Source: Fusarium oxysporum f. sp. lycopersici 4287
Lineage: Eukaryota; Ascomycota; Sordariomycetes; Hypocreales; Nectriaceae
Direction: 5' to 3'
Assembly (NCBI RefSeq): GCF_000149955.1
Contig: NW_017264847.1
Span: forward strand, 99,647-163,646
DNA length: 64,000 bases
Below are positions 3,602 through 42,532 of the stretch, one piece after another (the stretch's first letter is position 1; each line of letters opens with the position of its first letter). The notes beneath the pieces were generated by a model. That model ran no database searches, was not told the DNA's origin, and saw nothing but the letters and a program-made list of their open reading frames with translations. The position numbers were made by a program, and so were the translations under genes.

Positions 3602-5351
3602 CTAGAGACGATTTCCCAGGTTTACATGAACAGCCTTGACAGATGTGTATGCCAGAATACCCGACTCTCCCAACTCTCGTCCGATGCCTGACTGCTTCAC
3701 ACCACCGAATGGAATTCGGAAGTCCGAGTCGTTGCTACTGTTGACCCAGACCACTTTGAATTGTTAGCTGACATGATACATGTATTTATGGTTGATCTTG
3801 CACGTGACTTACTTCCTGCATCTATCCTCTTGGCAATTGCATGGGCTCGAGTAATATTCTCTGTGAAAATCGCAGCCCCCAAGCCGTAGAAGCTATCGTT
3901 GGCTCTCTCAATTGCCTCATCTTCGGTCGAGAAGGAGCTGATGGCGGCGAGTGGGCCAAAGACTTCTTCGCGGTAAATCTTCATGTGGTCCTTGACATCA
4001 GTGAAGACAGTAGGCTCGATGAAAAAGCCCTTTCCATTGACACCCTTATAAGGTTTGCCACCGAAGCTCAACGTGGCGCCTTCCTGCTTGCCTTGCTCAA
4101 TGTACGATAAGACACGTTCGTACTGGGCCTTGGTGACCTGAGGGCCTTGGAAGGTTCCAGCAGCATAAGGGTCGCCAACGACAGAGGTCTTCTTGACCTG
4201 TTCGACAAAGAGCTCAATGAACTTGGGATAAATCTTCTCGTGGATAAGGAGTCTGCTTGTAGCTGTGCAGATTTGTCCCTGGTTGGCCATAATGCCATAA
4301 TGAGCCCACTTGACGGCATTCTCAAGCTCGGCATCTTCAAAAATGATAAGGGGTGACTTCCCACCTGTCTCGAGGGTGATCTCTTTTAAATTGGTAGCTG
4401 CCAGTTTCATGATCTCGCGACCTGTGTTTGTAGACCCTGTAAAGGCAATCTTATCCACGTCGATGTGACCTGCTAGGCTTGCTCCAGCTGTGCGACCAAA
4501 TCCATTGACGATATTGATTACACCAGGCGGGAAACCGGCCCTTTCAATAAGAGTGGCAAATAGCAGGACAGATAGAGGGGTCTGTTCGGCAGGCTTGAGC
4601 ACAATTGCGTTGCCAGCAGCCAGCGCCGGGCCGAGTTTCCAAGCTGCCATTCCCAATGGATAGTTCCAGGGAATGATCTGGCCACAGACGCCAATCGGTT
4701 GTCGGTTCGTATACGCGAATTTGTTATCGTTGGTAGAAATAACTGCAATGACAAGCCGTATCAGTAAAATTCTTTTGTCGTTCGACAGTTCTTCCACTTA
4801 CCTTGGCCTGAAATCTTATCGGCGAACCCGGCATAATAGCGAAGCACTCCTGTCAACTCGCGAACGTCTCCTTGGGCCGACGAAAAACGCTTCCCTGCAA
4901 AAGTCAGCAATCTGCAAGCGACGGATGGGTTTAGAGTTGGCTGCTATACCATTATTCCAGGTATCGATCGAAGCAAACGTGTCTGTCAACTCTTCAGCCA
5001 GGTCGGCCAGCTTTCGCATGAGCTCGCCACGCTCTGTCGGGCTAATTCTTGACCATGGCCCTCGGAAAGCTGCGCGGGCTGCTTTCACAGCATCGTCAAT
5101 GTCTTGCTCGCCACCGGCATGGACCTTGACGATTTCTTGCTCGTCTCTATAAGATGTGAGTTTAGGTCAGCAGCCCCAAATGATGTGGAGGCAGGGGGGA
5201 AAGGGTAGTTTTGCGCTTACATGGGGCTTACGACTGTGATCTTTTCGCCAGACTTTGCCTCGCGCCATTCGTTGTTGATGAACAGACCCAGAGGCTGCTC
5301 GACTGAGCGTCCATTCGGGGCCGTAAGGGTCTGGAAGAGGTTTGCAACCAT
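3602..5351 (-). CDS. NAD(P)-dependent aldehyde dehydrogenase, 500 aa
   Basis: Oxidises aldehydes to carboxylic acids in the cytosol. Five exons (5351-5221, 5146-4950, 4894-4802, 4742-3813, 3753-3602) with introns of 55-74 bp sum to 501 codons, the normal length for the class 1/2 ALDH superfamily. The general base Glu265 sits in LETGGKSP and the catalytic thiol Cys299 in [11 protein letters not shown]. The FTGST and PWNYP cofactor motifs are intact, and the C-terminal exon supplies the FGGVKQSG motif. The start ATG opens a standard N-terminus (MVANLFQTL). It lies downstream of a cupin and a Baeyer-Villiger enzyme on the same strand, so a role in finishing oxidation of an alcohol or ester product is reasonable but not shown. 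Confidence 0.95.
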
Positions 5352-7101: not shown

Positions 7102-8817
7102 TCAAGAACCAGTAAAACCGGGAAACCCTTCCTTAATCTCCTTCTGTGCCCACTCCCGGTAGCGATTGAGACCGCCAAAGTAAAACTTTGTACTTGACTT
7201 GCGCCCCTCAACATTCGCCCCAAAGATCCAGCTGGCAGTTGTCTTGAACAGTGAGCCCTCTACCAGCTGATCACAGAGCTCGCTCCACTGCTGCTCCGCT
7301 TTGTGTGAAACCTCCATGACGTGATTCTGCTTGTTCTTCTCAGCATGTAGAATGCACTCGGTGATAAGGTCAATCTCGCTTTCAATGACAACGGGGAAAT
7401 TGGCAAACGCGCCCTGTGGCCCAGACACGATGAACATGTTGGGGAAGCCAGAGCACGCGATTGCACCATAGGCTGTTGAGCCATTCTCCCAGTGTTTCTT
7501 GATAGACCTTCCGTTTCGCCCTGTTATCTTGATACGCAGGTAATTGCCTTCAATTGCGTCGAAGCCGGTGGCAAAGATCAAGGCGTCGAGTTTATGCACT
7601 TCGCCGTCCTTGGTCTTGATACCCTCCGGTACAATTTCTTGAATAGGTGTCTCTCGAAGATCCACGATATCCACGTTGTCGCGGTTGAAGATTTGATAAT
7701 AACCTGAGTCGCAAAGAGGCCGTCGGGCGTAAAGATCGCATGGCTTCAGCGCCTTGGCCTTCTTGGGATCCTTGACAATTTCGTCAATCTTGCTGCGGAT
7801 GAAGTTGCACGCTTCCTCGTTCGCGTCGAGGTTTGTCGTGATGTCGCCAAAAGCACTGAACATGAAGCGGAAGCCGTTGCCCTTATCCCAGACTTCCTGG
7901 AACGCTTGACGACGTTCTTCAGGTGTGACCTCCATTGTCTTCCGCGTGCTCTCAGGTACACCGAAAGCGGTTGATGAGGACCATACGTCTCGCCAGATCT
8001 CATCGTAGTTTTCGTTAATCTTTTCACGGTATCCATCAGGAATCTGGCCTTGGCCACTAGGGACCGAATATTGTGGATGGCGTTGGAACGAGACAAGACG
8101 ACCAACCTTGGGAGCTATCGCCGTCATGACCTGAACACCCGTTGACCCATTGCCGATAATACCGACTCTTCGCCCCTCCAACTTCAATTTGTCATCCCAC
8201 TTCGCTGTGTGGACGATGTCGCCGGCAAAGGAAGAGATACCGGGGATGTCAGGGTAGTTGGGCTTCGACAGGAGCCCCAGGCAGTTCACCAAGTAGCGGG
8301 CCTTGATGACCAGATCGCCTGAGCATGAGATGATCCATTTGCCGTCTTTGTCATCCCAAGACGCTGACTCCATCTCGGTCGAAAAGCGCATGTATTTCCG
8401 AAGATTGTGTTTCTTTACGACGTGTCGCAGGTAGTTGAGAATCTCAGGCTGGTAGACATAATGTTGCGACCATGGGTAAGTTCGTAGATCTTCCTTGTCC
8501 CACGAATAACGATAAAGGTAGGTTTCTGTGTCACTCATGGCGCCAGGATAGGTGTTCCAGAACCACGTACCACCGACATCACTAGCCATGTCAATACATT
8601 GTATGTTAAGCCCCGCCTTAGTAAGCTTGTAGGTCGAGTAGATGCCTCCAACTCCGGCACCGACGACGAGAGCATCGACCTCGAGGGTTTCAGGCAAGGA
8701 TCCCATATCGGACTTGGAAGGCTGTGAAGATGTAGGTACAGTGGTTTTGCGGCTTGGGTATGTAGGCTTGGAGGACCGAAAGAGACTGTGAGAAATAGAA
8801 GGGAATCGACCGATCAT
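7102..8817 (-). CDS. Flavin-containing Baeyer-Villiger monooxygenase, 571 aa
   Basis: Class B flavoprotein monooxygenase that inserts oxygen next to a ketone, giving an ester or lactone, using FAD and NADPH. It is uninterrupted by introns. The FAD-binding GAGVGG lies at residues 53-58, GGTWFWNTYPG at 82-92, the Baeyer-Villiger fingerprint FAGDIVHTAKW at 197-207, and the NADPH-binding GNGSTGVQ at about 222-229. The end retains a normal C-terminal domain. The first 45 residues are rich in Ser, Arg and Lys and could be a weak organelle-targeting leader; Met38 is a possible alternative start immediately before the fold. The length matches cyclohexanone-monooxygenase-like fungal enzymes. Neighbouring ALDH and acyl-CoA dehydrogenase fit degradation of a ketone or its ester product, by inference only. 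Confidence 0.95.
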   Translation of the reverse strand: MIGRFPSISHSLFRSSKPTYPSRKTTVPTSSQPSKSDMGSLPETLEVDALVVGAGVGGIYSTYKLTKAGLNIQCIDMASDVGGTWFWNTYPGAMSDTETYLYRYSWDKEDLRTYPWSQHYVYQPEILNYLRHVVKKHNLRKYMRFSTEMESASWDDKDGKWIISCSGDLVIKARYLVNCLGLLSKPNYPDIPGISSFAGDIVHTAKWDDKLKLEGRRVGIIGNGSTGVQVMTAIAPKVGRLVSFQRHPQYSVPSGQGQIPDGYREKINENYDEIWRDVWSSSTAFGVPESTRKTMEVTPEERRQAFQEVWDKGNGFRFMFSAFGDITTNLDANEEACNFIRSKIDEIVKDPKKAKALKPCDLYARRPLCDSGYYQIFNRDNVDIVDLRETPIQEIVPEGIKTKDGEVHKLDALIFATGFDAIEGNYLRIKITGRNGRSIKKHWENGSTAYGAIACSGFPNMFIVSGPQGAFANFPVVIESEIDLITECILHAEKNKQNHVMEVSHKAEQQWSELCDQLVEGSLFKTTASWIFGANVEGRKSSTKFYFGGLNRYREWAQKEIKEGFPGFTGS

Positions 8818-15603: not shown

Positions 15604-16728
15604 CTAACTTGGATTCATAGTGTCAGGAATAGTGCCATTGCACAGCCACTTAGGAATGGGTTTCTCTTTTGAATCCAGTGCAGTGTGTAGCTCGAGGGCC
15701 GCCTTAACACGCACACCAACGTCCGTGGATCTCCACACGTCCATACCTTGGATACGCAGCGTCTCGGCGATGTGAGAGATGGATGAGATGCCAAAGCTGG
15801 TGTGGGCAAAATCTCGGCAGGTCTCCTGCGTGATGCCACTAATTGGGAAGGTTTTTTGATTGTGCCAGAATTTGATAATCTCCGCGGTGGTATTGATCCC
15901 ACCACGGCCTTGCACGGGATACTTCCCATCAGAAGTCAGGTAGATGTACGCGGGAACCCGGCCGGAGAACAACTCCAAGGACTTTTCGTAGAGAGCTGCA
16001 TCTTCAAGGAAGACGGCAGCCCCTATGGTAGACTCAATCATCACTACGAGCGTCAGCAGATCCGCTAGTGACAGTAATACAGAAGTAGTGGACCTACCTA
16101 GTTCCCAGTTTCCATTCTTCTGCGGGGCGCCGTCCTCGATGATGGGGATGTAGGCGTGTCGTAGCATGTCAGAAAACGTCTTGATACTCTTCTTGGACCA
16201 GTGTTCATAGCTCGAGCGCATGATTTCACCTGCACGTACCCAATTAGCGGCCGACCAGGCCGCCTGCAGTGGTGCGTTGCTGTTGTTGTGACCTTGGATC
16301 GTGCTAGACCAGGCATCCATATAATGGATGGATTTCTCAGCATAGTGCTTGTCCTTCGTGATCCACCATGCCAATGCGTTCATATATGCCGCCATGGAAT
16401 CCTCGCGCTCCTGATAACACCCAATGTTGGGTGTCGATGTCGGTCCGCACTGGACCGTCTCATATGGCTCGGCCGTTCGCGTAGGCGAGATGTACGACAT
16501 GTTTAGCATGGAATCCAATGCCTCCGTCCAAGGATTCTCCTTAGCCTCGATCTTCTTGGCAATGTGGTCAAGCTGTGGCCCAGAAACAAAAACTCCTGGA
16601 TGATCCCATGTCTTGGGCGCGTTGGTTGGAATGGGAAAATAAGGAGTCGCTTTACTATCACTTGCCGCATATACAGATTTAAGGGCAGAGGAAGCTTCCA
16701 AACCAAGCATCAGGAATTGGAGCTTCAT
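15604..16728 (-). CDS. Alginate-lyase-like domain protein, about 356 aa
   Basis: Alpha/alpha-toroid protein of the alginate_lyase type found in many plant-associated fungi; likely acts on a polysaccharide outside the cell. The first 22 residues (MKLQFLMLGLEASSALKSVYAA) form a weak signal peptide. The body has WDHPGVFVSG, a YMDAWSSTIQGHNNSNAPLQ helix region, AANWVRAGEI and NGNWE. A 54-bp in-frame stretch at 16044-16097 with GTAGGT donor and GTAG acceptor is best taken as an intron, because removing it restores NGNWELVMIES in place of an odd insert. The uronate substrate is not determined. An AGGTGCC-TGA-GGCACCT inverted repeat lies about 110 bp upstream. Confidence 0.85.
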   Translation of the reverse strand: MKLQFLMLGLEASSALKSVYAASDSKATPYFPIPTNAPKTWDHPGVFVSGPQLDHIAKKIEAKENPWTEALDSMLNMSYISPTRTAEPYETVQCGPTSTPNIGCYQEREDSMAAYMNALAWWITKDKHYAEKSIHYMDAWSSTIQGHNNSNAPLQAAWSAANWVRAGEIMRSSYEHWSKKSIKTFSDMLRHAYIPIIEDGAPQKNGNWELGRSTTSVLLSLADLLTLVVMIESTIGAAVFLEDAALYEKSLELFSGRVPAYIYLTSDGKYPVQGRGGINTTAEIIKFWHNQKTFPISGITQETCRDFAHTSFGISSISHIAETLRIQGMDVWRSTDVGVRVKAALELHTALDSKEKPIPKWLCNGTIPDTMNPS

Positions 16729-20162: not shown

Positions 20163-21282
20163 CTACATGGATGAGTAGGTATAGCACAGCGGGCCAGCTC
20201 GGGTATCCATATAGTCCTTCACCACAGGCTCTACATCAGCTAGACGCATAACAGGCATTCTATCGTTGATCTCGGCAGTGTTCCACTTGTTGGGATCGTT
20301 AAAGCCAGTATAGTCAGCCAGACGAGTGGCGTTGCGACCTTGCCACTAAAGAATAATTAGCAAATAGGAAAATTTAGAGGGAAGTAGGAGTATCTTACCT
20401 TGGCCCAGACTCGGTCGACATTAGCGTGGTGAAGGAAGAAGAGGGGTTCGTTTGGTGAAGTAGCGGGGCCCATATCACCGAAGATGATGCTGTGAACTAT
20501 TGACATGTTAATATTTTCAAACCGAAAGGGCGTGGAGATGACGTACTCTGAGCATGAGGCAAGCCCTCAAGCATATCAGACATAGAGTGATAGTTGTCAA
20601 AGCTATAGATGGTATCCATGACCCGAGAGTTGTAGGCAGTAGCCTGCATATCACCAAGGATCTGGTTACCATCCTCATCCTTGCCAAGACCACCGTTGAA
20701 TTCGCGGGTGAAGCAGTGAAGACGGTTACCAGGAGTGTTCATGTCAGGCCATCCCATAGCCAAAGTAAGATTCGTGTTGGCAAAAGGTCCATCGACGACA
20801 CAGCGCTTGAAGCCAGGAACATTACTGCCAGTGAGTTTCGCATCACCACCAAATCCAGTCTTAGGGTCAAAGAGGGGAGAATTGACGACGTCGTTCTTAT
20901 CAGCGTCAATCGTCCAGTCCCAGTATGGCTGAACGCCCTTGTAGTCGCACTCATCGCGAAGCATATCCTCATGAAGCTGGACGTACCAACGATGCCAGGG
21001 GAGGAAATTCGCGACAAAGTGGATGTCCGTGTTGAGAGTGAAGTGAGTATAGACGAGATCGTCCATGCGTGTTGTGACATCGTCGACATCCTTGTATGCC
21101 TTTTTGGGGAGGTTGCGAAGACAGACTGCAGCGCGGAGATATTCTGTCTTTTCGGCGCTGGTGAGCTCGCGCCATTCTTTGCGAACAACGGGATCGGAGC
21201 ATGAGCCTTCTGCACGGGCTACGGGGCTGGCGATGGATAGGGCGGCGAGAGCCAGGCTGGCGAGGAATGAGTGGGCGAGCAT
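20163..21282 (-). CDS. Secreted short tyrosinase (copper type 3), 338 aa
   Basis: Oxidises phenols to quinones with a dinuclear copper site. Three exons (21282-20547, 20496-20399, 20345-20163) give 339 codons. The chosen Met begins a clean signal peptide (MLAHSFLASLALAALSIASP, cleavage near ARA-EG). CuA histidines lie in YTHFTLNTDIHF and FLPWHRWYVQLHE; CuB histidines in GLPHAQIHS (completed across intron 1) and PLFFLHHANVDRVWAKWQ. It is a one-domain enzyme without the large C-terminal shield of melanogenic tyrosinases, like enzymes of several fungal secondary-metabolite and secreted sets. It is divergent from the gasdermin-like gene, 828 bp away; a link is not implied. Confidence 0.94.
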
Positions 21283-22110
21283 TTTGTGTAAAGCGAATGT
21301 GTTGGAACGAATGACTGATTGGGGTAACGAAGTACGAGCTTGGCTGGTAGACTGAACTGCTCGGAGGACTGACAGTAACTTAAATAGCAATCAGCTGCGA
21401 GGCTCGTCCCCTGTAATGGTGTATCATGGGTTATTCTCCTTTCCGGAGCTACCGTTTAGCGGCATCTGAGAATACCGGCATGCGGGAGATGCCGTCCACT
21501 AAGAAAAGAAGTTATCGAGGAAGTGGAGCAAAAACCGTTGAGCCGGTTGCAAGTATCCGTAAATACGAACTTTAACGTCTTCGGTCATCTCCTCCTTCTA
21601 GAAGCCAAGAGCGATTCCAGTTGTCGCTAAGAATTAGAATTGGCGGATTTTCCACCAAATGTAACACGGTGAAACCCTTAGCGGATTCTTTGGCCCACGT
21701 TAAAATCTTTTTATAGCGATTGAGATCGAGGACAGGGGAGACGACGGGATGCCACGCCACGTTGGGACTAGCCAGGGCACACGGGCCATAGGGTAAGTTC
21801 ATGCAATTGTCATTGCCAAGACATTAAAGGGTGAGTTCATCTGAAATCCCGTATAGAACTGTCAATCGGATCTAGGGAGATTCAAGAGGATTTTTGATAA
21901 GATGTGACTGGGAGGCGTTCATTGTTAAGTGCCCATACACCGAGGCTGAATGTCAATAGGCAGACTGCTGAGTTGTCAGCCAACGGATAGTCAGGCTGCA
22001 GGCGGGGTTTGCCTGTTTGTCAGCCCAGCCCTCTCGGAAGCAAAGCCTTCTCACGATCTGAGTTCACTGAGTAACTAATCCCTTGAGCTTAAAATCACGA
22101 CCTACTCATC
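21283..22110. promoter_or_regulatory. Divergent promoter region between tyrosinase and gasdermin-like genes
   Basis: Start codons on both sides point outward. A 76-codon minus-strand frame at 21572-21802 has no recognisable features. Pyrimidine-rich stretches precede both starts. No specific operator was recognised. Confidence 0.5.
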
Positions 22111-22932
22111 ATGAAGTCCTGGTTTCTCGCCCCTGACTTCACCTTCACTCCCGACGGACCCCTCCAGCTTGGCGCTGTCATCCCTCATCCCAGTCGTCCG
22201 ACTCAGACCCTTGCATCACCCCGCACCGACGCAATCACGCTTCCTGAAGTGCAAACTCTGATCGAGGCGAACCATTCTCACTCAAATGATGTCACGCGAA
22301 CAGCTGGAGTTAATCTCTTTGCCAAGTTTGTAGAGCTTGCTTCTGCTTCTATCGGCTATGAGACTAGTCGGCGCAACGCTCTTGAGTATGGAACTGTGGA
22401 TCATGAAGTTCGATCTCTAGCGGCGCCGTTTACGAAGGAGTTTTTGCAGAGTATCGTCAACACGGAGGCTGTTAGAGAGCATATCGACTCTGGCTTTCTT
22501 GGAAAGCGAACCGTTTACTTTATTTCCGGACTCAGGGTTGCCACTTCTTCTTTTATGGTGACGAAAGAGAAGGGGGTTGGACATAATACCTCACTGTCAG
22601 GCTCGGGGCCAGCGGGACCCGTGCCCATCGAAGTCGGCGCTGGTATTTCAGGTGGAAAAGAGAGCTCCAAAACTGATTCCTACGAAACTGCTGTGGGCAT
22701 CATTTTTGCTTATCGTCTCCACGCCATCCGCGTTCGAGGCAGCGGCAACGTTAGCTCGGAGATGTTTTCGCACCGCAAGCTTTTCATGTCCGATAGACCA
22801 GAGTCTGATACTATGGAAGTCGTTGATGTCACTGCAGAAGTTCTGAAGGCTGATAAAGAGGAGGACGAGGCGCCAAAGTACGAGATGGAAGGTCTGGGAG
22901 ATGGGGAATACTGTCTCGTAGCGAAGGCATAG
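22111..22932 (+). CDS. Fungal gasdermin-like pore-forming protein (HET-Q1/RCD-1 type), 273 aa
   Basis: Single-exon protein without signal peptide or transmembrane helix. Length and layout match fungal gasdermins: a start WFLAPDFTFTPDGPLQLGAV, a middle VDHEVRSLAAPF and GLRVATSSFMVTKEKG, a Gly-rich turn (about residues 163-183) and an acidic C-terminal tail of about 50 residues (EVLKADKEEDEAPKYEMEG). In Podospora HET-Q1 a subtilase removes a short C-terminal piece to free the pore-forming domain, leading to cell death; in Neurospora RCD-1 allelic pairs do this without cleavage. Here the gene runs into a subtilase gene whose stop lies 67 bp beyond its own, as expected for the first mode. A phenylalanine-containing stretch at residues 218-226 is a candidate cut site. 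The family call rests on sequence look and context, not on a search. Confidence 0.82.
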   Translation: MKSWFLAPDFTFTPDGPLQLGAVIPHPSRPTQTLASPRTDAITLPEVQTLIEANHSHSNDVTRTAGVNLFAKFVELASASIGYETSRRNALEYGTVDHEVRSLAAPFTKEFLQSIVNTEAVREHIDSGFLGKRTVYFISGLRVATSSFMVTKEKGVGHNTSLSGSGPAGPVPIEVGAGISGGKESSKTDSYETAVGIIFAYRLHAIRVRGSGNVSSEMFSHRKLFMSDRPESDTMEVVDVTAEVLKADKEEDEAPKYEMEGLGDGEYCLVAKA

Positions 22933-22999
22933 ACTTATATTTGTTTCTACGTCACGAGGCTCCAACAGGAAATGAATGCGAGAATTGGTTTGTGTCTTT

Positions 23000-25826
23000 T
23001 TATCTGTACATGAATGGTGATACTGCATCATACATAGCAGCCCATGCCCTCCATGCGTCTGCCTTCTCACTCCAAAACCATATCGGATTTATAAATCTAT
23101 TATGCCCTGTCTGATCCGGTGCCATCTTTTCCAACAATCTTCTCATGCCATCGGTTCTCTTCAAACACTTTACCGGGCTTTGCTCTGTTGGTATGGGAAG
23201 AACTGTCGAAAGAACTTCTGCGTAACCTATTGTTGACGCTGCTATACCAGCAGCCACGGCTGTCGCTATCGATGATCCAGGATGACATATATGAGGGCCA
23301 AAGCGTTTGGCGATCTCGTCGTTGAGGCGGGTTGGTAGGTTGTCCCCGAATGTGCCGAGAGCAATAGTGCTTCGATCAGTGATTGGAGGGTTACTGGCAT
23401 TAAAGGTACCCTGACAGTCTGTTGCTCTGACCGATATAACCGATCGATGTCTCGCGGGAAAGGCTTCCCGTTGGTAAGCCGCGTTGTTACCAGCACTAGC
23501 CAAGAATATGATTTCGCGACTTCGCTCAACCTCTTCTATCGCTGTAGAGATGGCATCATCGTCGTGGGGAAAGCCGAAGGACATGGAGATGATATCCACT
23601 TCTGCTTCAAGTCCGGCCCATCGAATTGCCTGTATGCTGTTTAGTGTCTGGAATACGAACCAACAAATTAATTCTCCCACCTTGGATATTTGATCACTGC
23701 TGTACTCGAGCTCGTCAGCATCCTTGGCAACTCGGACCACATAAACGTGAGCTAGCGGAGCAGCTTCCATGATCAGCCGAGTCATCAGGCTGCCATGCCC
23801 GTATTCGTCTTCCATCGAGTCTGGACCAGGCGTGTCTTCGCTCTCCTCACATGTGAAGTCTTTCCATGCTTTTATGGACTTCTTCCTTCTTGGTATCTTG
23901 CAAAACGGTAAGTCTGCATCGCATCCTGTATCTAGAACCGCTATCTTAACAGGCTTGAAGTCGTGCTCTGGCTTTTTCTCCCGCAGGCTCACAATGTGCA
24001 TACTGATATGTTTCAGATTGTCGAGCCATTCTTCTGGAACGACGGTCTTGCCTGTGTGGAACGAGGCAACTTGAGAGTGGAGCTTGTTGTGATTCTCGAC
24101 CTCCCTGCATCTTGCTAAGTAGGATACGTATTTTGCATCAGTTTTGAAGGCAATATTGACGAGCTTTGACAGTGGTTCGACGATTTCAGTATAGACTTTC
24201 CGCCTTATGCCGCCTCCATCCGTGTCGGTGACAGGATTATCGTTTGTAGAACTCTTCGTTGTCATGGCTTTCGGGTTAGAAGTGGTGAATGTTCTAGGAT
24301 CTAAGCAATTCGCCACGGCTCTTGCAAAGATGTCGCGATGGGTCGATCGCGCCCATTGCGCTTTTTCAAGCTCAGAAAGTAGCTGTCTAGCGGCACCATG
24401 GTCTCTGTTTAGTCGAGATGTAAGTGGTAGGTGCGCCATTGACTTGATAGGCCTTGCAAGGCCGATCTGCAGGAGTAGAAGTCCCAGCCCGAGAATGTGC
24501 GGAAACGGGTGCGTTAGCATTGACTTATCTTCATCCTCCGAATTCCTCTTCTGACCTTCAAAGTTGAGTGAAATATATACCCGTAATGCAAGCTGATCTT
24601 TGGGTGATTGTTGATGGTCCATTTCATGCATAAACCAGATGTCATCGCTTGTCCAATGGTTTCCCATCAAGTCAGATTCATAGAATTGCCAGAAGGAATG
24701 TGCAATTGCATGAGAAAGTAAGATCTTGTCTTTGTCAGTGAGTTTGTAGCTTTGGACCACCAGAGACAGTGGAAGTCCTTGGCCTGGGCACAGAAACCGT
24801 TCAAGAGGAGCGGGTGGCGGTAATGATACAAGACCGACGTCCTTGACGAAGTTGAGATTGACTTTGGCAAATAGTTGATGTTTCAACACTTGACAGAAGT
24901 AATCCGAGTTGATCCGTTTCAGTGTAGAAATTTTACTATCTCTCTCTTCGTCACTGGAAACGTTTGCAAACTTGACAGCACCACGACGACCTTTCGTTTG
25001 CCTTCGTCTATGAGTCAGATACCAACTGCCTTTCGGGAATTAGACTCACATGGGTATACCCAGCCACAAATGCTGCCAGTAACTCATATTCTCAGATGAT
25101 ATCACAACTTCGAATTGGGCATGCCTACTCTGTATATGTGGCGTTGCGTCAAGGTGGAGTCTGATGGGATGGGCGAGCTTATGATGATGAGGCCTTACCT
25201 TCTTGGATTTATCCAGCCAAGATTTCTGCTGCGGCATTTCCGCGTGATGACAAAACGCGTGCTGGTGAAGAGCCTTGAAGAGATTTCTGCTGACATGCTG
25301 AGGATAATCATCTGGTTCTGGCAACGCCGATCCTGTTGTGAGCTGGTCAAGACCAGTCTTTTTCTTTGGCTCATCCTGGCTTAACTTAGCCAAAAACGCG
25401 TCGCATTGCTTTTTCGCTTTGGATGGGAGTGCATCGTCGGCAATGAAGGACATAGAAATAGAGTTTTTCAGCCTTGACCTGTTATCTGGTCTTGCCAGCG
25501 TCATGATGTGCATATAAGATTGCCTGGGTATGGTCTGGCTCCCCGCCGGAGTCGGAAACTATCATCTCAGCCATGTCTCAGGTTCAGGACAAGTAACATA
25601 CCATGCAGACCTCAAGCAGCGTATGCAGCAACTTTGCGGCAGCTTCCTCAGCCGCATCTTCAAGCTCGTAACCAGCGAATGACTCTTGAGCAATTTGCCC
25701 CAGCCTCGTTCCAACTTCTCCCGCAACTCGTTGTCGTTGGCGAATGCCGCATTCCATCACCAAAGCATAGACCTGCTTGGCAACTTCAGCGACCATTTCG
25801 CACGCGCTCAACCGTTCAGGCGACAT
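23000..25826 (-). CDS. Intracellular subtilisin-like (S8) protease with N-terminal fungal helical domain (HET-Q2 type)
   Basis: Probable trigger protease for the convergent gasdermin. Exons 25513-25050, 25007-23681 and 23629-23000 join in frame (introns 42 and 51 bp). Counted from the Met at 25513 this gives 806 residues. An additional 80-codon helical exon at 25826-25584 with a GTATGT donor probably precedes it, but its phase does not match any plain acceptor, so the 5' end is uncertain. The N-terminal part resembles the uncharacterised region (DUF7580-like, tentative) of fungal NLR-type proteins, with HPIRLHLD and HWTSDDIWFM. The catalytic triad is complete: Asp514 in AVLDTG, His559 in YGHGS and Ser717 in GSSIATAVAAG, with Asn645 of ASAGNN for the oxyanion hole. 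There is no signal or propeptide, so it acts inside the cell. The divergent neighbour starts 246 bp away. Confidence 0.85.
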
Positions 25827-26072
25827 CTCGACTGTCGCATGATTTGGTCACGGTAAGGCTGAGCTATTTTGAGCTATGTGGAGCAAAGGTTTGGTTTCGA
25901 TGATCTGTCTGAGTGAGGCTGAGTATCCCTGTTGCTGCGGTCACGTGACGATGTCGACAGCAATTCCTTGGGTCCTGGCCATTTTGTCGCCGTCTGACCT
26001 GCTCCTCTTTCCTACAACCCGATTTTCTAGCTATCGGAACAAGAAAGCCCGCCCGTTTTGGGCCTCAAAATC
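25827..26072. promoter_or_regulatory. Bidirectional promoter between protease and PLC-like genes
   Basis: 246 bp separate the outermost start codons of two divergent genes. It holds a perfect palindrome GTCACGTGAC at 25940-25949, a CACGTG-type bHLH/Cbf1-like site close to the middle, and two copies of a GAGGCTGAG/AAGGCTGAG word. One short control region could co-express both genes. Confidence 0.55.
25940..25949. promoter_or_regulatory. E-box palindrome GTCACGTGAC
   Basis: A 10-bp perfect palindrome with the CACGTG core recognised by fungal bHLH factors, placed midway in the divergent promoter. The binding factor is not known. Confidence 0.45.
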
Positions 26073-29000
26073 ATGGATCTCATGAGTTTGAATGCTCGAG
26101 AGCTTTCGAACAAGTGCCTTGAGGCTTTTCAACTATGCTTGACTTTTCGCTCAACAGACCCCGGTCTGTCCAATCAAGAAGCATTTCATGATGAGCGATT
26201 TGAGTATCGCCTGGCAGATTTTAATCTCTGGATTGACGGCATCGGCGCTTTGGCTCCTTCAAAGGCTTCACTAGATGCGAGGTTGAATGAACGACCGATT
26301 GATCTTTCCCTAGTTAAAGGAAACCTTGTTATGCTGTTTCAATCACTGGAAGATTGTTTGAGTCTGCTGACAACTAACCAACCGCTTGAAGATGCGTTAT
26401 TAGATCTTGATTCGGCTTTGGAAAGTCTTGTCTCGCTTTCATTAGCTATTCGCAGGACAGGGCGTCGGTCACGCCTTCACAAAGCCGACCGTCTTTTCAA
26501 ACCAGAAGAACACGCTGAGCTGAGGAAACACTTAGAAGCCATAATCCTTCTTCGACCTGGGCCTGGTCCATGCTATGAAGGTGACGAGTTCCGAAAGAAG
26601 ATGAACTCGTTGACACCACTTCAAAGTCATCTTGTCACGGCCAACCTGAAGCGAAGAAATCGGTTCATACAAGCCCATCTACACTCTTTAGGCCTGAAGA
26701 AAAGAAGTGTTGGGTTTGAGTTACCGGTTCCTGAAGTTGCAGAGCAGGCTTCTGCACCAACTCTTAGTTCAGATGATAAGATTGCCGAAGTGGCTTTATC
26801 TGCTCCCACTCCTCGACAGCCGATCGAGCCGCTACCAGCACCTATGTCAGTCACCTCTGCTTCGGTCCCTGAGAGCAAGCTCGAGTACAAGGAACCCGTT
26901 TCTCAGAAGACCGAATCGACGCCAATGACAATCATTACTCAGATCACAGCTTCTGCTCGATATCCTCGCCCAAGAGTATCTGATAATGAACAAAAATTAG
27001 TTCAGTGTCCTTGTTGCTGTCAGACATTACCTGTATCAGAGGCTAAGAACAACAACCGATGGAGGTGAGGATATTTCCCCTGGCTGCTTGTTCCTGACAC
27101 CTGATTCATCCTGTAGAAAACACTTGGCTGAAGACATACGCCCCTATACCTGCATATTCGATGGATGCCCTTCCCCGGATGTGTACTACAGTAGTAGGTC
27201 AATGCTGGAACAGCACTTTCGACAGGACCATCCACCAGTTTGGGTATGTCCTCTGTGTGACGAGGGCTCAGTCTATTCGACCATGACTGGAATGATGGAC
27301 CATCTTCATAACACTCATCCACAAGCCATTGGGGAAGACATCTCAGCAATCATATCATCTTCGGCGCAGACGAAGATGGGTGTAACGAGTTGCCCTCTCT
27401 GCGAAGTCAAGGGTGATGCTGACTCCCCAGAGCTGATTGACCACGTCCTTGAGCACGTCCACGACTTCTCGCTCAGGTCTCTTCCCTGGCCTAAATCTTC
27501 AAGGGTCGAGCTTGGCGGTGAAGTTGGGTCTTCAAACACAGACAGTAATGAGTTTTCTGCTGTGACTAAATGGTTAGAGGGGTGTGAACACCGTACGGGA
27601 GACATTGACCCGGCTTTAAAGCTAGTCGCTTGTGACTACGGGAGGTTGGCAATCATAACTGAACAGATCGAATCTCAAAAAGACGACAAACTTGGCCTGG
27701 ACATTGGCTTTGCTGACGAGCATGGTGACGAGTCTGCCGAGGCCGAGACTGATATATCGCAGCTGACGAAAGACACTCTTGACTCGGTGAAACAGCATGA
27801 TGGAGATCGTGATGTGGTCTTTTGCCATGAATGCTCTGCTGAATGGTATCGAGATGAAAATGGACTGACATGTCCCAAATGTCAAAACGAGCTGGTTGAG
27901 ATTGTGTGTTTTCTGCTGTCATTCTCTCCTTCTCATAATACTGACCTTGGTGAGCAGGTCGAACCTGAATATGATCCTCTGGATTTAGCTCTTCACACAA
28001 CTCCTACAGGGCCTCGTCTCTCTAGAACTGATCTTCTTATTGGACTTAGTGATGATGGCGGGCCTTCAAGGGCCTCCAAACCAAGCGCTCGTGGGTCAAC
28101 CTCTGGCTTTCGAAGGTTCGCTGATCGCCTTTTCTCTCGCAAGAAGGCCGATCACATTGAGCCACAGGACGACAAGCCATTTTCTGACATCTTTGTCCGG
28201 TTTCCAACTCTCACCCTGCAGGCATGCGGCATCTTGCTCAAGGTTTATGCACGCCGCCTATACCCTTTGACAAAAAAGAAGTCTGTGTTCGCAGACTTTC
28301 TTAGACGCACACAGGGTGAAGATGTTTCGCCAACCAGTCACTCCGTTTCCGACCTAGACAGCTTTTTACACATTATGCTTACGTCTTATATGGATCCACT
28401 CAAAGCCCTACCTCCCAAGGACCTCACAAAACCTATCTCAAAATACTTCATTAAAAGTAGCCATCGGACTATCCAGCGAGGAACGTCATTGAATTCCCTC
28501 CCGTCCTCAAGGTCAATCCGAGAAGTAAAATATTCTAGCCTATCCACCCTGCTGTACCGGATCTGACTTTGAATAACAGGCCCTTTATGCTGGCTATCGA
28601 TGTATCGACATTGACGTTTGGGATGGCGATGATGATTTCATGACTGATGCAAAGGGGAACTCAAATGTGTTGTATCAACCGTCTAGTGCAAAGGGCGGAT
28701 CCATCACGAAGAAACTGTACCGAAGCTCCAGCCCTGCCAGGGAAATTACTGAACCGAAGCATGGGGCCCCCAAGATCACACTCTCCAAGCCAGGTCGGTC
28801 TACTTCTCTCTCAGAACCAATCGTGACAGACAGAAGGACTCTCGCCGGGCACTTCAGCTTCAGAGAAGCTTGTGAAGTGATTAAAAGCTCTGCCTTCTTA
28901 CACAGCGATCTACCTGTCATAGTCAATATGTCTGTTTACGCTAGACCCGAACAGCAAGAGCTGATGGTCAGAATCATGAAGGAAGAGTGGAACGGCTGTC

Positions 29001-30075
29001 TGATCGATGAACCATTAGAAGGCTGTGATCCGAGGTTTCGGTTACCAAAATTAGAAGATCTTCGGAACCGGATACTTGTCAGATTCTCAGCAACTAGACA
29101 CAAAGATGTTCTTGATTCTGACGGTCTTGGCAAGACTTTGCGAAGAGAAGGACGGGATTACAAGGGCTATATACCCATTATACAGGCATTGGACGGACTC
29201 GAGATATATATGCGAAGCAAGCCTTTTGAAGGATTTGACAATATTGGCGCAAAGGACCCCGCCCACGTTTTCTCCCTACAGGAGCAGGGACTCCAGCTAC
29301 TTTTGTCCGTTCCAACTGACGACATTTCCATGGAAAACCTCGAACGAAACCAACTTTTCAGACATAACCGGGACTTCTTCTTTCAAGTCACCCCAAACTC
29401 AGCGCGAGTTGACTCTTCAAATCTCGAGCCCTTGCAGTTTTGGAAACACGGGGTCCAAATGGCTGCCATCAGCCGCCACAACATCGATGAGGGCATGATG
29501 TTGAATGAAGGGATGTTCGCTGATGAGTCAGGGTGGGTTCTTAAGCCCGACCGCTATTTTATTCCAGCTAAAGGTGTCCCATTCGGTCTACCAATACACT
29601 CCACCCTTATGGAAGTATCCATATTTGTTTTTCAGGATCAAGCTTTTGAGCTGATTACAAAGGACGGTATAATACAACAGACCAGGGACCTTTCACCATT
29701 GACTATGGCTACACTCCACGTGCATGGTGACAGCGACCACAGGCTACAAGTGGAGGATGACTTAGTCGAAGACGAGGAATCTGGTGACTTTTGTTACAAA
29801 CACCAGTTTGTTCCAGACAAAGCAATTACTAATATAATTCTTAAACTCTGCATCCTCCGGTGAGTAAGTCTACAATGTGCCGAGTGATGCTGACAGTATT
29901 ATCCAGGTTACGATTCGCGGATCACTCAACCGGCCGAGGTTTGATCGCCTGGACCAGTCTCAGGCTGGATCGCCTAAATCGAGGATACCGTCTTGTACCA
30001 CTTTATAACGAAAAAGGAGGACTTTTGAGTAAACAGAAAATGCTTATCAAGTTTAATATCAAGTTACTAGAATAG
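26073..30075 (+). CDS. Zinc-finger / PLC-like (X-Y-C2) multidomain protein, probably non-catalytic, 1264 aa
   Basis: Five exons (26073-27064, 27117-27903, 27958-28524, 28580-29859, 29907-30075) sum to exactly 1265 codons. Residues 1-190 are a helical fungal N-terminal region of the kind found before C2H2 fingers. A linker follows, then three to four Cys2His2-like fingers at about 312-445 (for example CPLC with HLHNTH) and a C567-x2-C570...C583-x2-C586 zinc ribbon. From about 690 comes a phospholipase C core: FIKSSHRT (His762), RCIDIDVWDG (789-798), a second X-half FSFREACEVIKSSAF, a Y-half RVDSSNLEPLQFW (about 1057) with GWVLKPD, and a C2 domain ending LIAWTSLRLDRLNRGYRLVPL. The second catalytic His position reads Asp866 and the metal-binding Glu of the X core reads in NMSVYAR, so hydrolysis looks lost. 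It is divergent from the subtilase gene. The role is unknown; membrane-lipid sensing is a guess. Confidence 0.85.
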
Positions 30076-30412: not shown

Positions 30413-32147
30413 TTACGTATCCTTCACCGGCTCAAGCCCTCGGTCTCGGATAAAAGCCGTGCCAAGCAAGCAAAGCCCAATCAAAGGAACCTGCAATATG
30501 AACACACTGTGACTAGCTGACATGTACGCATCCAAAACCGTAGGAACTTGGCGCATTGACTCCGGAAGCACGTATGTTGAGCTGGCAAGGCTCTTGTACT
30601 CAGTTGGCAGAGTAGCGCGTAATTGAGCTTGGAGGACTGCTGCAGAGACAGCAAGACCGCATGCGCCTCCAATACAACGATAGAAATTCCTGTTAGAAAT
30701 GATGACTGCGCGACGGCTCTTCGGAGAATGTGCCTGTAGTGCGATCAGGGTAGGTTGAAAGATACACCCGACTCCTGTTCCGACAATGGCTAATATCACA
30801 GCGATAACGGCTGGACTAGTATGTCTTGTAAATAGTAGCGCAAGGCCTGCCCCTCTGATAAATGCGTCAGCAACTGATTCGAACAGGAACGGAAGTGTGA
30901 AGAGCTTACAAAGTCCAGATAGCAAAACCGAATATGATCACCTCGCCGTATCGGAGACGGCGACTGATGTATTGTCCCGAACCAATAGAAGCAATCATTT
31001 GCGCTGCCACCAATGGGGTGTAAACCGCTGCTGATTTGATCGCACTGTACTGGTGAGGGTTTTGGAGATAAAGTGGAACGTAGTAGAGGTAGGACTGGTA
31101 AACAGCACCGAGCAGACAGTTCTGGGCAAGCATGATAGCCAGGCTTGAGTTCTTGTAGATATCAACTAAATTGGAATGATCAGTCATATTCATCTTGGAA
31201 ACTCATTTCGGGCAGGTCCTCTTACTGGGCATCATTGGAAGCTTTGCCATCTTCCATTCCCATCCTATAAAGGCTATGAACAGCGCACCGCCAACCGCAA
31301 GAAAGCTTATCGATAGTGGCGAGTCCCATGAGAAATATGAACCTCCTTGATGATGGTTAACATTTGTGACATCAGCTTTCGTGGAGCTTTGGGTCTTACC
31401 TCCGGAGATAGGGATCAGAAGCAGTACAATACCAGCGCCTGATACCAGTGAACCCACCCAGTCAATCTTGGAAATTCCTTCCCAAAAGCCAATGGTCGGG
31501 GGCTTGGAGGGGAGAAAGATATAGGCCAAAACCGCGGTGATGAACGACAACGGGGTCAAAAGCCAGAAGAACACTCTCCATGATGACTTTTGCATGATAC
31601 CGGCGGCAATGAAGGGTCCGATCACATTACCCAATCCAACGGTGCCTCCAACAACTCCTTGAATCTTTCCTCTCTGCTCAAGAGTGACGATATCCGAGAT
31701 GATGATGTTGACAAGGTTCTGAACACCACCGCCGCCGATACCGGCGATGGCCCGAGAGACGTAAAACATAATCGCATTCTGACTCAACGAGCAGAGCAAA
31801 TCTGCCACACAGAGCAATAACGCTGCAGATACGAAAATAACCTTGCGACCAAAAACATCAGAGAGTCTTCCGTAGAGCATCTGAAAGCAAGTATTGGCGA
31901 TCAAGCTGGATGTGCCAGCCCATGAGATGGTAGCTCCGGCGTCTAAGTCTTTCGCAATGGTGGGGATAGTTACTGATATGCCATTTTGATCAATTGTGAC
32001 GAGTAGTAAAGCCGCGGAGAGGGTAGCGAGGGCGGTAACTAATTGTCGTCGAGGCAGGATATTTACCTGGTCGTGAAGAGCTTTTTCGTCCTTGGTGAGT
32101 ACCATTCTGTCCTCTGCATTGAGGTATATGGGAAGGAATAAGTTCAT
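30413..32147 (-). CDS. MFS drug:H+ antiporter, DHA2 (14-helix) type, 539 aa (525 if Met at 32105)
   Basis: Plasma-membrane exporter of toxins or metabolites. Three exons (32147-31226, 31165-30910, 30854-30413) join through introns of 60 and 55 bp to a multiple of three. The first helix follows RRQLVTALATLSAALL and carries TIDQNGISVTIP. Motif A is GRLSDVFGRK and motif C GLGNVIGPFIAAGI. There are about 14 hydrophobic segments and a long loop at helix 6-7 with SKIDWVGSLVSG, all typical of DHA2. Two in-frame ATGs (32147, 32105) are possible starts. A CCGCGG palindrome lies 89 bp upstream of the first. It is co-directional with the upstream P450 gene, so export of a P450 product or detoxification is plausible. 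Confidence 0.93.
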
Positions 32148-37347: not shown

Positions 37348-38068
37348 GTGCTGCGACTCGCTTACACCGCAGTATCTTGGGCACAATGCTTTGAGGTGTT
37401 TTATTATAATTATCTATAGATATTTACTTTTATCATACTACTCTACTCGAAGCCTGCTTTGCTTCTATCTTTAGATTCTCTTAGAAAGCTTTATGGATTT
37501 AAATTTTTCGCCCCGAAAATCATTTCATTGTTGCTGTTGATATTCTATGAGGAACGTAGGCAGAGTTTCCTGGCTGCATCTCTCGAACAACACATGTTGT
37601 GATTGGCTCCCTCATGGGCTAAAGAAACATTATATAAGACGGTGCTGAGTTTGCAAAGGTCTAAATTACACTTTTACAATAAGAGATAGAGCACTAACTC
37701 ATAGCCCTATACTACGTATTGAATATTACAACGCAGCAATCTTAAACCAAATTTTTTGTCGTGCTGGATCTGTAATATATCTTACACTATACCAAACGGT
37801 CCTGAGTGAAGCTAAGTCAAAACGCTAGACAGCTATGACCGAGCTGAGCTTCAAGTGAAGTGGGTACGATCTAGCCTCCTCAAATGGGCTTAGACTGACT
37901 CATTCCGTTATTGTGATTGGCTTTCCCGTAATATTCGCCCTCGCGATGCCCGATGGCAAGTGGGGCATAACATTTATCCTCCCCTTAGAAAAACTCACCT
38001 CGCCCAGAAGTGTCATTCTTCCTATAGGTTCCCTCGTGTTTACCGTCAACGGCATTCTACGCACAACA
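37348..38068. other. Intergenic upstream of a Zn2Cys6 gene
   Basis: The plus-strand frame that continues upstream of the regulator to 37913 has no ATG before 38069 and is taken as 5' leader. A CCAAT-like ATTGG word occurs twice (about 37603 and 37916). Nothing else was seen. Confidence 0.45.
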
Positions 38069-39667
38069 ATGGCCATCCAAGGAATCGTGACTGCCAAGAT
38101 CAAGCATAAGCGCGCATCTGCTCCCAAAAGCCGTAATGGCTGCATCACATGGTACGCTTGCCCATCCTCCTTCACCTTCCAAGTCCAGTGGCTGATTTTA
38201 AGTGTCTGTCTGCAGCAAGTAAGTGGCGTTATGAGTTTCCGCCGTCCGGTTACTTATATATATAGGATCCGACACCTAAAATGTGACGAGGCGAAACCGG
38301 TATGTAACCGTTGCTGCGAGGACAAGATCAAGTGCGACGGCTACGCAATGCCTAAACCCAAAGCTCCCCGGCGAAAGCACCGTAAAAAGACTGCACCAAC
38401 AAATTCCGATACTATGTCTTTGTGCTTAACGATTGACGATATCCCCTCATTGACAAGTTCAGAGCGTTTGTACTTCCAACACTTCCTGCAGTTCACGACT
38501 ACGCAGCTGTCACTCTCTTCCGGTTCGACCAACTTTTGGCTCCGATATGCTTTGCCTATAGGTTACCAATTCGAGTCAATTCGATACAGCATGATTGCTG
38601 TTGGCGCCTCGCATCGCCTATTCATGGCGAAATCCCTCGGTCATTCGGATATAGGCGAATTAAAAGGCTTCGCTACCCACCAATACAATAAGGCTATCGC
38701 GACTATTATACCAAGCATGACAGCTTCTCAAGACTTGCATATTATCATGATCTGCTGCCTTCTTTTCGTTTCATTCGAAGGTCTGACTGGTCGCTATGAC
38801 GAGCTCCTACAACATCTCAGTGCCGGAATCTCATTATTCGATTCAGCGCTACCGTCATCAAATGATGAAGAACGCGCGATGACTACAAAGCTTGCCGAGA
38901 TGTTCTGTCGGCTTGGAGTAGAGTCATCCAACTTTATGCAAAAAGATCCAAGTGTCTCCGGGATGCGAAAGTGGTATCACACGAACGAACGTCAGCACTC
39001 CCAGTCTCCAAAACCATTCAGCAATCTTGATGAAGCATCTTCTGCATTACGGCGTTTAGATGTTCTCTACGACGAAAAGCCTTGGCACTACGAAGGAAGC
39101 GATGCAGAGGGTAAAGAGACTCTTGTGTCGGAAGCGAGTGCAAACCTCCAGAGCGCTCTCGATGGGTGGTCCGCGCGTCTTGATGCTCTCTACGAGGCCA
39201 GGAGCGAGGACATAATGATTGAGGGGGAGCAGCAGTACCGCAACCTGCGCCTGCGCCAGCAATACTGGCAGATGGCGATTAATTCATACTCCACGAAAGA
39301 AGCGGCCGCCAATCCCAAGACTTTTGAGCCATTCCTGGCAGCGGCCAGAGAAGCAGCAGCACCTTTTATTGCTCTCCGCCAGCCGACATTTTCGCTCGAT
39401 GGCGATCTGATCTCCGGCCTAGCTTTCGTCGCATCGACCACGACTGACGATGAAACCAAAGTACAGGCTCTTGACCTCTTGTGGCGATTGAATCGTCGTG
39501 AGGGGCTTTTGGACAGTCGTGATTTTGTTGAGTTGCATGAGCTTGCAAGGGCGCTTGAAACATGCGAGGAACCTAACTTTGACGAAAATTGGAAGCCTAC
39601 GGCGGCAGCTGGGCTTCCAACGATCATTGAGAGGTTACGAAACAGTCTGGGGCAATTACATATTTAA
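38069..39667 (+). CDS. Zn2Cys6 transcription factor with a 3-nt microexon, 495 aa
   Basis: Binuclear-zinc-cluster regulator, nuclear. The cluster reads C25-x2-C28-x6-C35-x6-C42-x2-C45-x6-C52, followed by a basic stretch (KPKAPRRKHRKK). To make it, exon 1 (38069-38151) must join a 3-nt exon CAA (38216-38218) and then 38266-39667: TG|C AA|G rebuilds Cys28-Lys29 exactly at the conserved CKIRHLKCDE. Both introns (64 and 47 bp) have GT-AG ends with GTACGC/CAG and GTAAGT/TAG. Skipping the microexon would give Trp instead of Cys28-Lys29 and destroy the finger. The remainder is the helical C-terminal region seen in small fungal Zn2Cys6 proteins. Targets are unknown. Confidence 0.88.
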   Translation: MAIQGIVTAKIKHKRASAPKSRNGCITWYACPSSFTFQVQWLILSVCLQQVSGVMSFRRPVTYIYRIRHLKCDEAKPVCNRCCEDKIKCDGYAMPKPKAPRRKHRKKTAPTNSDTMSLCLTIDDIPSLTSSERLYFQHFLQFTTTQLSLSSGSTNFWLRYALPIGYQFESIRYSMIAVGASHRLFMAKSLGHSDIGELKGFATHQYNKAIATIIPSMTASQDLHIIMICCLLFVSFEGLTGRYDELLQHLSAGISLFDSALPSSNDEERAMTTKLAEMFCRLGVESSNFMQKDPSVSGMRKWYHTNERQHSQSPKPFSNLDEASSALRRLDVLYDEKPWHYEGSDAEGKETLVSEASANLQSALDGWSARLDALYEARSEDIMIEGEQQYRNLRLRQQYWQMAINSYSTKEAAANPKTFEPFLAAAREAAAPFIALRQPTFSLDGDLISGLAFVASTTTDDETKVQALDLLWRLNRREGLLDSRDFVELHELARALETCEEPNFDENWKPTAAAGLPTIIERLRNSLGQLHI

Positions 39668-40720: not shown

Positions 40721-42532
40721 ATGGGTGCTTTTATTCTTCCTTCAACCGACGGTCGCACTGTCGCCGTACTCGGTGGAGGAGTACTTGGCCGCCGCATCGC
40801 ATGTGGATGGGTTGCAAGCGGATTTGACGTTATCATCCGCGACCCAAGCTCTGAACAAAGGGCTGCTGCCGTGAAATACTGCAACAATAGCATGTCTCAA
40901 TACTCAGACTCAGAGATTCGAGGAAGAGTGACAGCTGTTGACGATCTCGCTGAGGCTGTTGCCAAGGCATGGCTCGTTATTGAAGCTGTCCCCGAGAAGC
41001 TCCCTCTCAAGATCTCAACTTTTGCAGACTTGGAAAAGCTCACATCCCACGACACCATTCTCTGCAGTAACTCGTCATCTTACAAGTCAAGAGAGATGAT
41101 TGAGGGTCTTAAGCCAGAGACGAAACGACGTGTTCTGAACATGCACTATTACATGCCACCAGACTACCGTGTCGTCGAGCTTATGACGGACGGCGAGACC
41201 GACGAGAGCATCTTTCCATTCCTGTATCAGAAACTGGAGGAAATCAAGTTCCACCCTTATATCGCACGCAAAGAGTCAACCGGCTTTATCTACAACCGTC
41301 TCTGGGCTGCTATCAAGCGCGAGGTTTTGAATATCCTCGCCGAAGAAGTATCTACGCCAGAGGAGATCGAGAAGCTCTGGGAGGAGATGTGGTATGCCAA
41401 AAAGAAGGGACCTGTTGCCATGATGGACGCTGTTGGTCTTGATACTGTGTCCTTCATTGAGCAGCATTACGTTGCCGAGCGTGGCCTGCCTGATACACCA
41501 GTCAAGTTCCTTCAGAAGTACATTGATGAAGGAAGGTTGGGAGCCAAGTCCGACAAAGGTGGATTGCTCCCTCCAAGCAAACCTGTCAAGTCGGGCCACG
41601 AGTCTTTGCTCTACTTTCTAGACATTGGCTTGTCAAGTGGGAACGCAAAAGGTTACACTTCAGCTGGTCGTGTATTGTTGGGTTCCAGTGATGGAAGGCC
41701 AATGAAGACGCTTGTCTCAGGTCAGCGCATGCCTGATGGTATCGACATCTCGAAGTCCGCCGGAAAGCTCTTCTGGACCTGCATGGGCGACCCTTCAGCC
41801 AACGACGGCGCTATCCTCAGTTGCAATCTTAATGGTACAGACCTTAAGGAAATTGTCCCTCAAGGGTCGGTGCATACACCAAAGCAGCTGACTGTTGACA
41901 ATAAGAACTCGAAGTTATACTTTGCTGATCGCGAGGGAATGAGGATAATGAGATGTAACTTCGATGGCTCCAAGCTTGAAGTCTTGATCCAAACCGGTGA
42001 TTACCAGGTGGATGCGCATATGCTAGACCCTACAAGATGGTGTGTCGGCATCACGGTATCGCCTTCTACTGGCAAGTTCTACTGGACGCAGAAGGGACCA
42101 TCCAAGGGAGGTAAGGGCCGTATTCTTCAAGCCAACATCGACTTCCAACCAGGCGAGGATGCAGAGAGCAGGACAGATATCGAGGTACTGTTCCAGGGTT
42201 TGCCGGAGCCTATTGATTTGGAGGTTGATGAGAATGAGAATGTGCTCTACTGGACAGATCGGGGCGAGCTGCCAGATGGTAACACCATCAACCGTACCAA
42301 GCTCAATGGAATTACCAAGATGTCGCACGAGAGTGCAAGTCAGCCAGGCAGAGATTACGAGGTTGTTGCGCGAGGATTACATGAGGCTATTGGCATCAAG
42401 CTTGACCTGAAGAACCGTCGTATCTTCGCCACCGATCTGGGAGGCTCAGTGTACCAGTTTGATATGGATGGTGGTAACAGGAAGAAGGTGTATGAAGAAT
42501 CTGGTGCATTTGTGGGTATTACTGTGGCTTAG
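40721..42532 (+). CDS. 3-hydroxyacyl-CoA dehydrogenase / YWTD beta-propeller fusion, 603 aa
   Basis: One uninterrupted frame joins two folds. Residues 1 to about 300 are a 3-hydroxyacyl-CoA-dehydrogenase / lambda-crystallin-like NAD enzyme: VAVLGGGVLG (dinucleotide site), VIEAVPE, SNSSSY, catalytic-His region NMHYYMPP, and a C-terminal helical domain with STGFIYNRLWAAI. Residues from about 305 are LDL-receptor-class-B style propeller blades: GKLFWTCMG, SKLYFADREGMRIMRC, GKFYWTQKG, NVLYWTDRGE and RRIFATDLGGSVYQF. The start ATG at 40721 immediately precedes the Rossmann strand. The dehydrogenase should reduce or oxidise a hydroxy acid or hydroxyacyl-CoA; the propeller may bind a partner or act as a lactonase-like domain. 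There is no secretion signal, so it is cytosolic. Confidence 0.88.
   Translation: MGAFILPSTDGRTVAVLGGGVLGRRIACGWVASGFDVIIRDPSSEQRAAAVKYCNNSMSQYSDSEIRGRVTAVDDLAEAVAKAWLVIEAVPEKLPLKISTFADLEKLTSHDTILCSNSSSYKSREMIEGLKPETKRRVLNMHYYMPPDYRVVELMTDGETDESIFPFLYQKLEEIKFHPYIARKESTGFIYNRLWAAIKREVLNILAEEVSTPEEIEKLWEEMWYAKKKGPVAMMDAVGLDTVSFIEQHYVAERGLPDTPVKFLQKYIDEGRLGAKSDKGGLLPPSKPVKSGHESLLYFLDIGLSSGNAKGYTSAGRVLLGSSDGRPMKTLVSGQRMPDGIDISKSAGKLFWTCMGDPSANDGAILSCNLNGTDLKEIVPQGSVHTPKQLTVDNKNSKLYFADREGMRIMRCNFDGSKLEVLIQTGDYQVDAHMLDPTRWCVGITVSPSTGKFYWTQKGPSKGGKGRILQANIDFQPGEDAESRTDIEVLFQGLPEPIDLEVDENENVLYWTDRGELPDGNTINRTKLNGITKMSHESASQPGRDYEVVARGLHEAIGIKLDLKNRRIFATDLGGSVYQFDMDGGNRKKVYEESGAFVGITVA

Follow-up and report, generated by a model that had tools for sequence, protein, structure and literature searches.

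A convergent gasdermin–subtilase pair in the Fusarium oxysporum genome

The window analyzed here is a 64,000-nucleotide stretch from Fusarium oxysporum f. sp. lycopersici 4287, corresponding to C69:99647-163646 of a 61.2-Mb, 71-contig genome. It harbors a gasdermin gene and an S8 protease gene arranged tail to tail (Table 1). Gasdermins are cell-death proteins that form pores and have relatives in animals and bacteria, and this pair very probably represents a fungal gasdermin/Q2-L cluster, i.e., a pyroptosis-like self-killing module of a fungus of the F. oxysporum complex. What is observed here is the gasdermin family and fold, the intact S8 triad, the pairing of the two genes and its recurrence. 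Both genes reside on one contig of one genome, the protease gene well within 10 kb of the gasdermin gene: the protease open reading frame (ORF) ends at 23000 (−) and the gasdermin ORF at 22932 (+), leaving the 67 bp between opposing stop codons given in an initial annotation of this DNA. The closest named relatives of both proteins are from F. oxysporum.

The gasdermin ORF (22111-22932, + strand) is present as a single exon, and its 273-residue product, which the initial annotation had recognized as gasdermin-like from its layout, displays both sequence homology, measured against RCD-1, and the fold of the gasdermin pore-forming domain. A single-sequence search matches RCD-1-1 with E=0.0035, and the profile search against gasdermin and RCD-1 families suggested in that annotation returns RCD-1 with E=5.4e-6. 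The structural comparison suggested alongside it agrees, as gasdermins fill Foldseek ranks 1–9 and structural-aligner ranks 1–12 for the predicted structure. The homologue search yielded 56 sequences, and the gasdermin alignment (A1) comprises 55. In A1, F219 is identical in 55/55 sequences and F225 in 95%, both within the junction of core and acidic tail. In HET-Q1, F238 lies at the cleavage site according to two reviews (PMC10989679, PMC12881547), and by this analogy residues 214-228 form a candidate cleavage region.

The convergent partner encodes a Q2-L-type protease. The start (25826) and stop (23000) previously assigned to this gene hold, but its coding sequence requires three short introns, and splicing them out gives 894 residues free of internal stops. 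Exon limits were set using P0057 (F. oxysporum f. sp. melonis, FOMG_13264) as a guide; this relative is also 894 aa long and is 96% identical to the 555-aa ORF. The subtilase domain (PF00082) carries the complete Asp/His/Ser triad claimed at the outset. Motifs place the triad at D602, H647 and S805, and none of the three varies across the 62 sequences of alignment A2, which were hand-chosen from 110 protease homologue matches. No hydrophobic secretion signal is seen at the N-terminus by eye, no predictor having been run, in line with the intracellular location proposed earlier. The strand/helix order of DUF7580, which precedes the S8 domain, looks compatible with a kinase-like fold, as judged by eye. 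A phmmer search of DUF7580 found no kinase and returned only stellacyanin (E=0.14) and agglucetin (E=2), and the fold matches shown for the protease are subtilases only, the S8 domain filling the lists meant to test DUF7580 as a kinase. DUF7580 is named in no paper of the literature searched.

The pairing recurs within the genome and in other fungi

A protein search with the gasdermin of contig C10 locates at least ten gasdermin places in this genome (all genome-search counts are lower bounds), on C69 (the window), C10, C11, C9, C5, C2, C3 (twice), C6 and C70. An S8 match adjoins nine of the ten, the exception being C2:2814527; if the four copies on C3 (twice), C6 and C70 are counted once, six of seven places are paired. 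Viewed from the protease side, 46 S8 matches were merged by hand into 37 loci, and a gasdermin open frame lies within ~1.5 kb of ten of these and of none of the other 27. The A1 profile alone detects nine of these ten gasdermin-flanked loci; the remaining one, C4:350k, was found only beside its S8 gene and only with a paralogue-containing profile, and was therefore kept out of the unbiased count. Nine of the ten pairs are convergent, with stop-to-stop gaps, where measured, of 67 (window), 63, 99 and 75 bp. DUF7580 is joined to the S8 domain at C69, C11, C9, C5 and the four-copy locus. The C10 pair (L053, C10:75001-84000) is divergent, and its protease frame continues into NPHP3_N and WD40 domains, resembling an NLR-like sensor. 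The four-copy locus (L037–L040) is another gasdermin/DUF7580-S8 pair, whose gasdermins are identical over 284 aa, which suggests recent large duplications in this genome. Of 42 CHAT protease matches, C5:4586297 alone falls within 10 kb of any of the eleven gasdermin places; it lies ~8 kb away from the gasdermin on C5, to which an S8 gene is already adjacent.

Across species, the longest contig of each of 120 gasdermin clusters (56 from the first search plus 64 new ones among the best 120 of 128 matches in a wider search) was compared with those of 109 protease relatives (110 matches, one without a value), exact agreement in bp being taken as a shared contig. Exact agreement is found for 22 of the 120 clusters, and these 22 are what the comparison covers, the other 98 not being assessable since only the longest contig per cluster is shown. 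Five near-misses within 50 bp all concern contigs <24 kb. Eleven of the 22 exact pairs have consecutive locus tags: FNYG_10554/10553, IL306_001071/001072, FGADI_6371/6372, CEP51_007068/007069, ACHAPT_011806/011805, N0V84_004692/004691, ACHAPU_001220/001221, F53441_4808/4807, TWF696_001014/001013 (Orbilia), ACHAQJ_002982/002983 (Trichoderma) and N7462_000409/000408 (Penicillium). The check for co-occurrence of the two families in related genomes is positive, and the gasdermin–protease pairing, repeated within this genome as well as across other fungi, exceeds chance.

Several results weigh against reading the pair as a gasdermin/Q2-L module. The gasdermin model has a mean predicted local distance difference test (pLDDT) score of 68, with most of the tail <50, and conservation of the junction may reflect structure, not cleavage. 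A Pfam scan of the 55 A1 sequences names no gasdermin family, returning four weak families in one A1 member each (best E 0.0094). The place at C2:2814527 (L070, C2:2812501-2817500) consists of open frames resembling a gasdermin, with a single in-frame TGA, and no S8, CHAT or DUF7580 match is listed nearby. Among the 22 exact pairs, one has distant tags (LCI18_007227/008062) and ten have no comparable locus tags.

Comparison with known systems and proposed mechanism

Two-gene clusters of fungal gasdermins and Q2-L proteases were reportedly described by Clave et al. 2022. The window pair belongs to this published type, such pairs being already known in fungi. According to reviews, ~80% of fungal gasdermin genes are clustered with protease genes (PMC10197012), mostly of the S8 family (PMC10197012, PMC10989679, PMC12881547). 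Like these clusters, the window sets a gasdermin of HET-Q1/RCD-1 size with a short C-terminal tail beside a multidomain S8 protease. For the protease of these clusters the reviews name WD40, ANK or TPR repeats, whereas the window protease carries DUF7580 instead; the 2025 review adds kinase-like domains, of which DUF7580 may be one. The published clusters comprise two genes, whereas the window holds a possible third.

HET-Q1 of Podospora anserina resembles the window gasdermin in length (278 versus 273 aa), in a predicted tail of ~5 kDa and in its S8 protease partner. HET-Q2, in contrast, is 388 aa long (PMC10989679), against 894 aa here, where a helical region and DUF7580 are added. The initial annotation had HET-Q1 cut by an "adjacent" HET-Q2; this needs correction, as het-Q1 and het-Q2 are idiomorphs, i.e., different genes at the same locus, according to PMC12881547, and hence are not neighbors within one haplotype. 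The window genes are not idiomorphs: both lie in one haplotype, and in this the locus differs from het-Q. The parallel drawn with HET-Q1/HET-Q2 survives as a paired gasdermin–subtilase module, but the nearer published parallel is the two-gene gasdermin/Q2-L cluster. No Podospora protein is recognized among the named gasdermin relatives (best 120 of 128 matches, many of them nameless) or among the named ones of the 110 protease matches. Neurospora crassa RCD-1 is the closest solved protein in sequence and fold; according to PMC12881547, RCD-1 proteins measure 244 and 257 aa and are triggered by two allelic partners with no protease, whereas the window gasdermin is paired with one. Bacterial gasdermins (8sl0, 9a84) share the fold and, per the reviews, a two-gene logic with neighboring proteases, but they are prokaryotic and their Foldseek and aligner scores fall below those for RCD-1.

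Modeled on published HET-Q1/HET-Q2 and CHAT/gasdermin work, the short acidic C-terminal tail would keep the gasdermin inactive. The helical N-terminus and DUF7580 of the intracellular protease might, at a guess, act as the sensor part, and the trigger sensed might, equally speculatively, be an intruder such as a mycovirus, or else an incompatible fusion; PMC12881547 names the activating stimuli of such sensors as a major open question. The protease probably activates the adjoining gasdermin: its S8 domain would cleave near the conserved junction, around F225, and the released core would oligomerize in the membrane, so that the cell would die.

A mosaic gasdermin and the question of an incompatibility locus

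The window gasdermin is a mosaic, in that a segment of about residues 138-198 is nearer to the F. verticillioides/F. fujikuroi type and the rest resembles the P0001/P0002 type. Identities to P0001 and to F. verticillioides P0004 are 98.5% and 93.4% for residues 1-137, 82.4% and 97.1% for residues 138-205, and 86.8% and 70.6% for residues 206-273. Maximum-chi-square scans in six comparisons, which share sequences and hence are not independent, place the segment at 138-198, 138-183 or 138-209 (two each), and 0/500 shuffles reach the observed maximum in each. Both segment types occur among F. oxysporum entries (P0002, P0014). The mosaic would fit exchange between old haplotypes, an expectation for incompatibility loci.

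A search of the genome with P0062 finds, above 57% identity, only the window locus and remnants, so that one intact copy exists. The remnants on C3 (L055, C3:897.6-899.3 kb) and C6 (L051, C6:3557.3-3559.0 kb) form a block 73–79% identical to the window, which fuses the equivalents of 21695-21829 and 24830-26480; these degraded copies retain remnants of the PI-PLC-like gene described below and of the N-terminal part of the protease, and the gasdermin and S8 domain are missing.

It is possible, if rather unlikely, that the locus governs heterokaryon incompatibility (vegetative compatibility), divergent F. oxysporum haplotypes triggering death at strain fusion; killing would then come from a gasdermin and a protease of different strains, or from two gasdermin alleles as in rcd-1. 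The single intact copy and the mosaic with its two segment types within the species are in keeping with such a locus, as is divergence among named F. oxysporum relatives, both of the gasdermin (P0002 91% and P0014 86% identical) and of the protease (P0057 and P0058 at 95–96% versus P0059, P0060 and P0062 at 83–84%). However, alleles and paralogues are not separated in these data, whose entries are cluster representatives and not a population sample, and strain Fo5176 is represented in each of the two protease classes (P0062, P0088), which points to paralogues in that strain; part of the variation may therefore lie between paralogues.

A divergent PI-PLC-like neighbor

Upstream of the protease gene, three ORFs that we infer to be exons of one gene (26073-27068, 27202-28566 and 28640-29863) encode an N-terminal domain, a Cys/His-rich middle region with Pfam matches below cut-off only, and PI-PLC X and Y domains. 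That this gene completes a three-gene cassette, its product, for example, sensing or editing the phosphoinositides bound by gasdermin cores, is unlikely, and we treat its membership as a lead that may prove right. In its favor, the last ORF matches PI-PLC-Y (E=6.3e-31), PI-PLC-X (E=2.4e-17) and PLC-beta (E=3.3e-17), and the neighbor shares a 246-bp upstream region with the protease gene. All four genome matches of the first ORF, moreover, adjoin a DUF7580-S8 gene (the window and C11:617449, upstream of it) or a protease remnant (C3:898920, C6:3557308). However, C3 and C6 represent one copied block, so that the independent loci number only two. At C11 the match is weak (E=4.5e-5), and as none of the 12 listed PI-PLC-Y matches falls on C11, the domain seems to be missing from the neighbor there. 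No solved structure is matched by the middle ORF at E≤0.1. In the PLC-beta alignment, read by eye, Asp occupies one catalytic His position, which we take to be the second active-site His of the PLC family, so the protein may be no active enzyme.

Uniting these leads, the gasdermin, the DUF7580-subtilase sensor and a divergently expressed zinc-finger-like/PI-PLC-like phosphoinositide monitor or editor might form a single death cassette, evolving in F. oxysporum as an incompatibility locus with mosaic haplotypes, while other chromosomes carry disarmed copies from which the gasdermin and the protease domain are gone; we consider this combination quite improbable. Very improbable are adjoining but functionally separate genes with a housekeeping or nutritional subtilase, for which nothing direct speaks beyond the 27 of 37 S8 loci standing without a gasdermin frame within ~1.5 kb, and against which stand the DUF7580 common to other gasdermin-linked proteases, the pairing in distant fungi and the apparent lack of a protease secretion signal.

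Beyond these genes, a tyrosinase-domain ORF (20497-21282, −), with a secretion-like N-terminus by eye, lies next to the gasdermin gene. The P450-to-GH28 ORFs of Table 1 together make up a metabolic neighborhood.

Table 1. Features of the window, with positions counted from its first nucleotide.
Feature	Position	Strand	Basis or detail
Fungal gasdermin, 273 aa, single exon	22111..22932	+	RCD-1 sequence matches, gasdermin fold, 56 homologues
Gasdermin core, pore-forming type	~residues 1-225		
Gasdermin acidic C-terminal tail	residues 226-273		48 residues, 5.3 kDa, net charge −10
Core/tail junction, residues 214-228	22750..22794	+	Alignment A1 and conservation; candidate cleavage region
Mosaic gasdermin segment, ~residues 138-198	22522..22704	+	
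Spacer between convergent stop codons, 67 bp	22933..22999	.	
Q2-L-type protease gene, 894 aa, four exons	25826..23000	−	Gene model and domain ranges from P0057
Protease exons	25826-25602, 25558-25050, 25001-23681, 23629-23000	−	Stop included
Protease domains	residues 8-174, 202-526, 596-819		Helical N-terminus, DUF7580, subtilase S8
Upstream region common to protease and divergent neighbor, 246 bp	25827..26072	.	
Divergent neighbor, possible third member	26073..29863	+	Three ORFs (see text)
P450 ORF	991-1971	−	
Aldehyde dehydrogenase ORF	3697-4650	−	
Flavin monooxygenase-like ORF	7102-8817	−	
Alginate-lyase-like ORF	15604-16728	−	
MFS ORF	31203-32147	−	
Fungal transcription factor ORF	37946-39667	+	
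3-hydroxyacyl-CoA dehydrogenase ORF	40721-42532	+	
GH28 ORF	61364-62797	+	

Implications

The gasdermin/Q2-L reading gives the F. oxysporum complex a concrete, very probable module of the pyroptosis-like kind, along with several paralogues. Defined pieces for testing are DUF7580, which recurs beside the protease domain, and the PI-PLC-like gene linked to the pair. If the locus does prove to control incompatibility, it would provide a molecular handle on vegetative compatibility in F. oxysporum.
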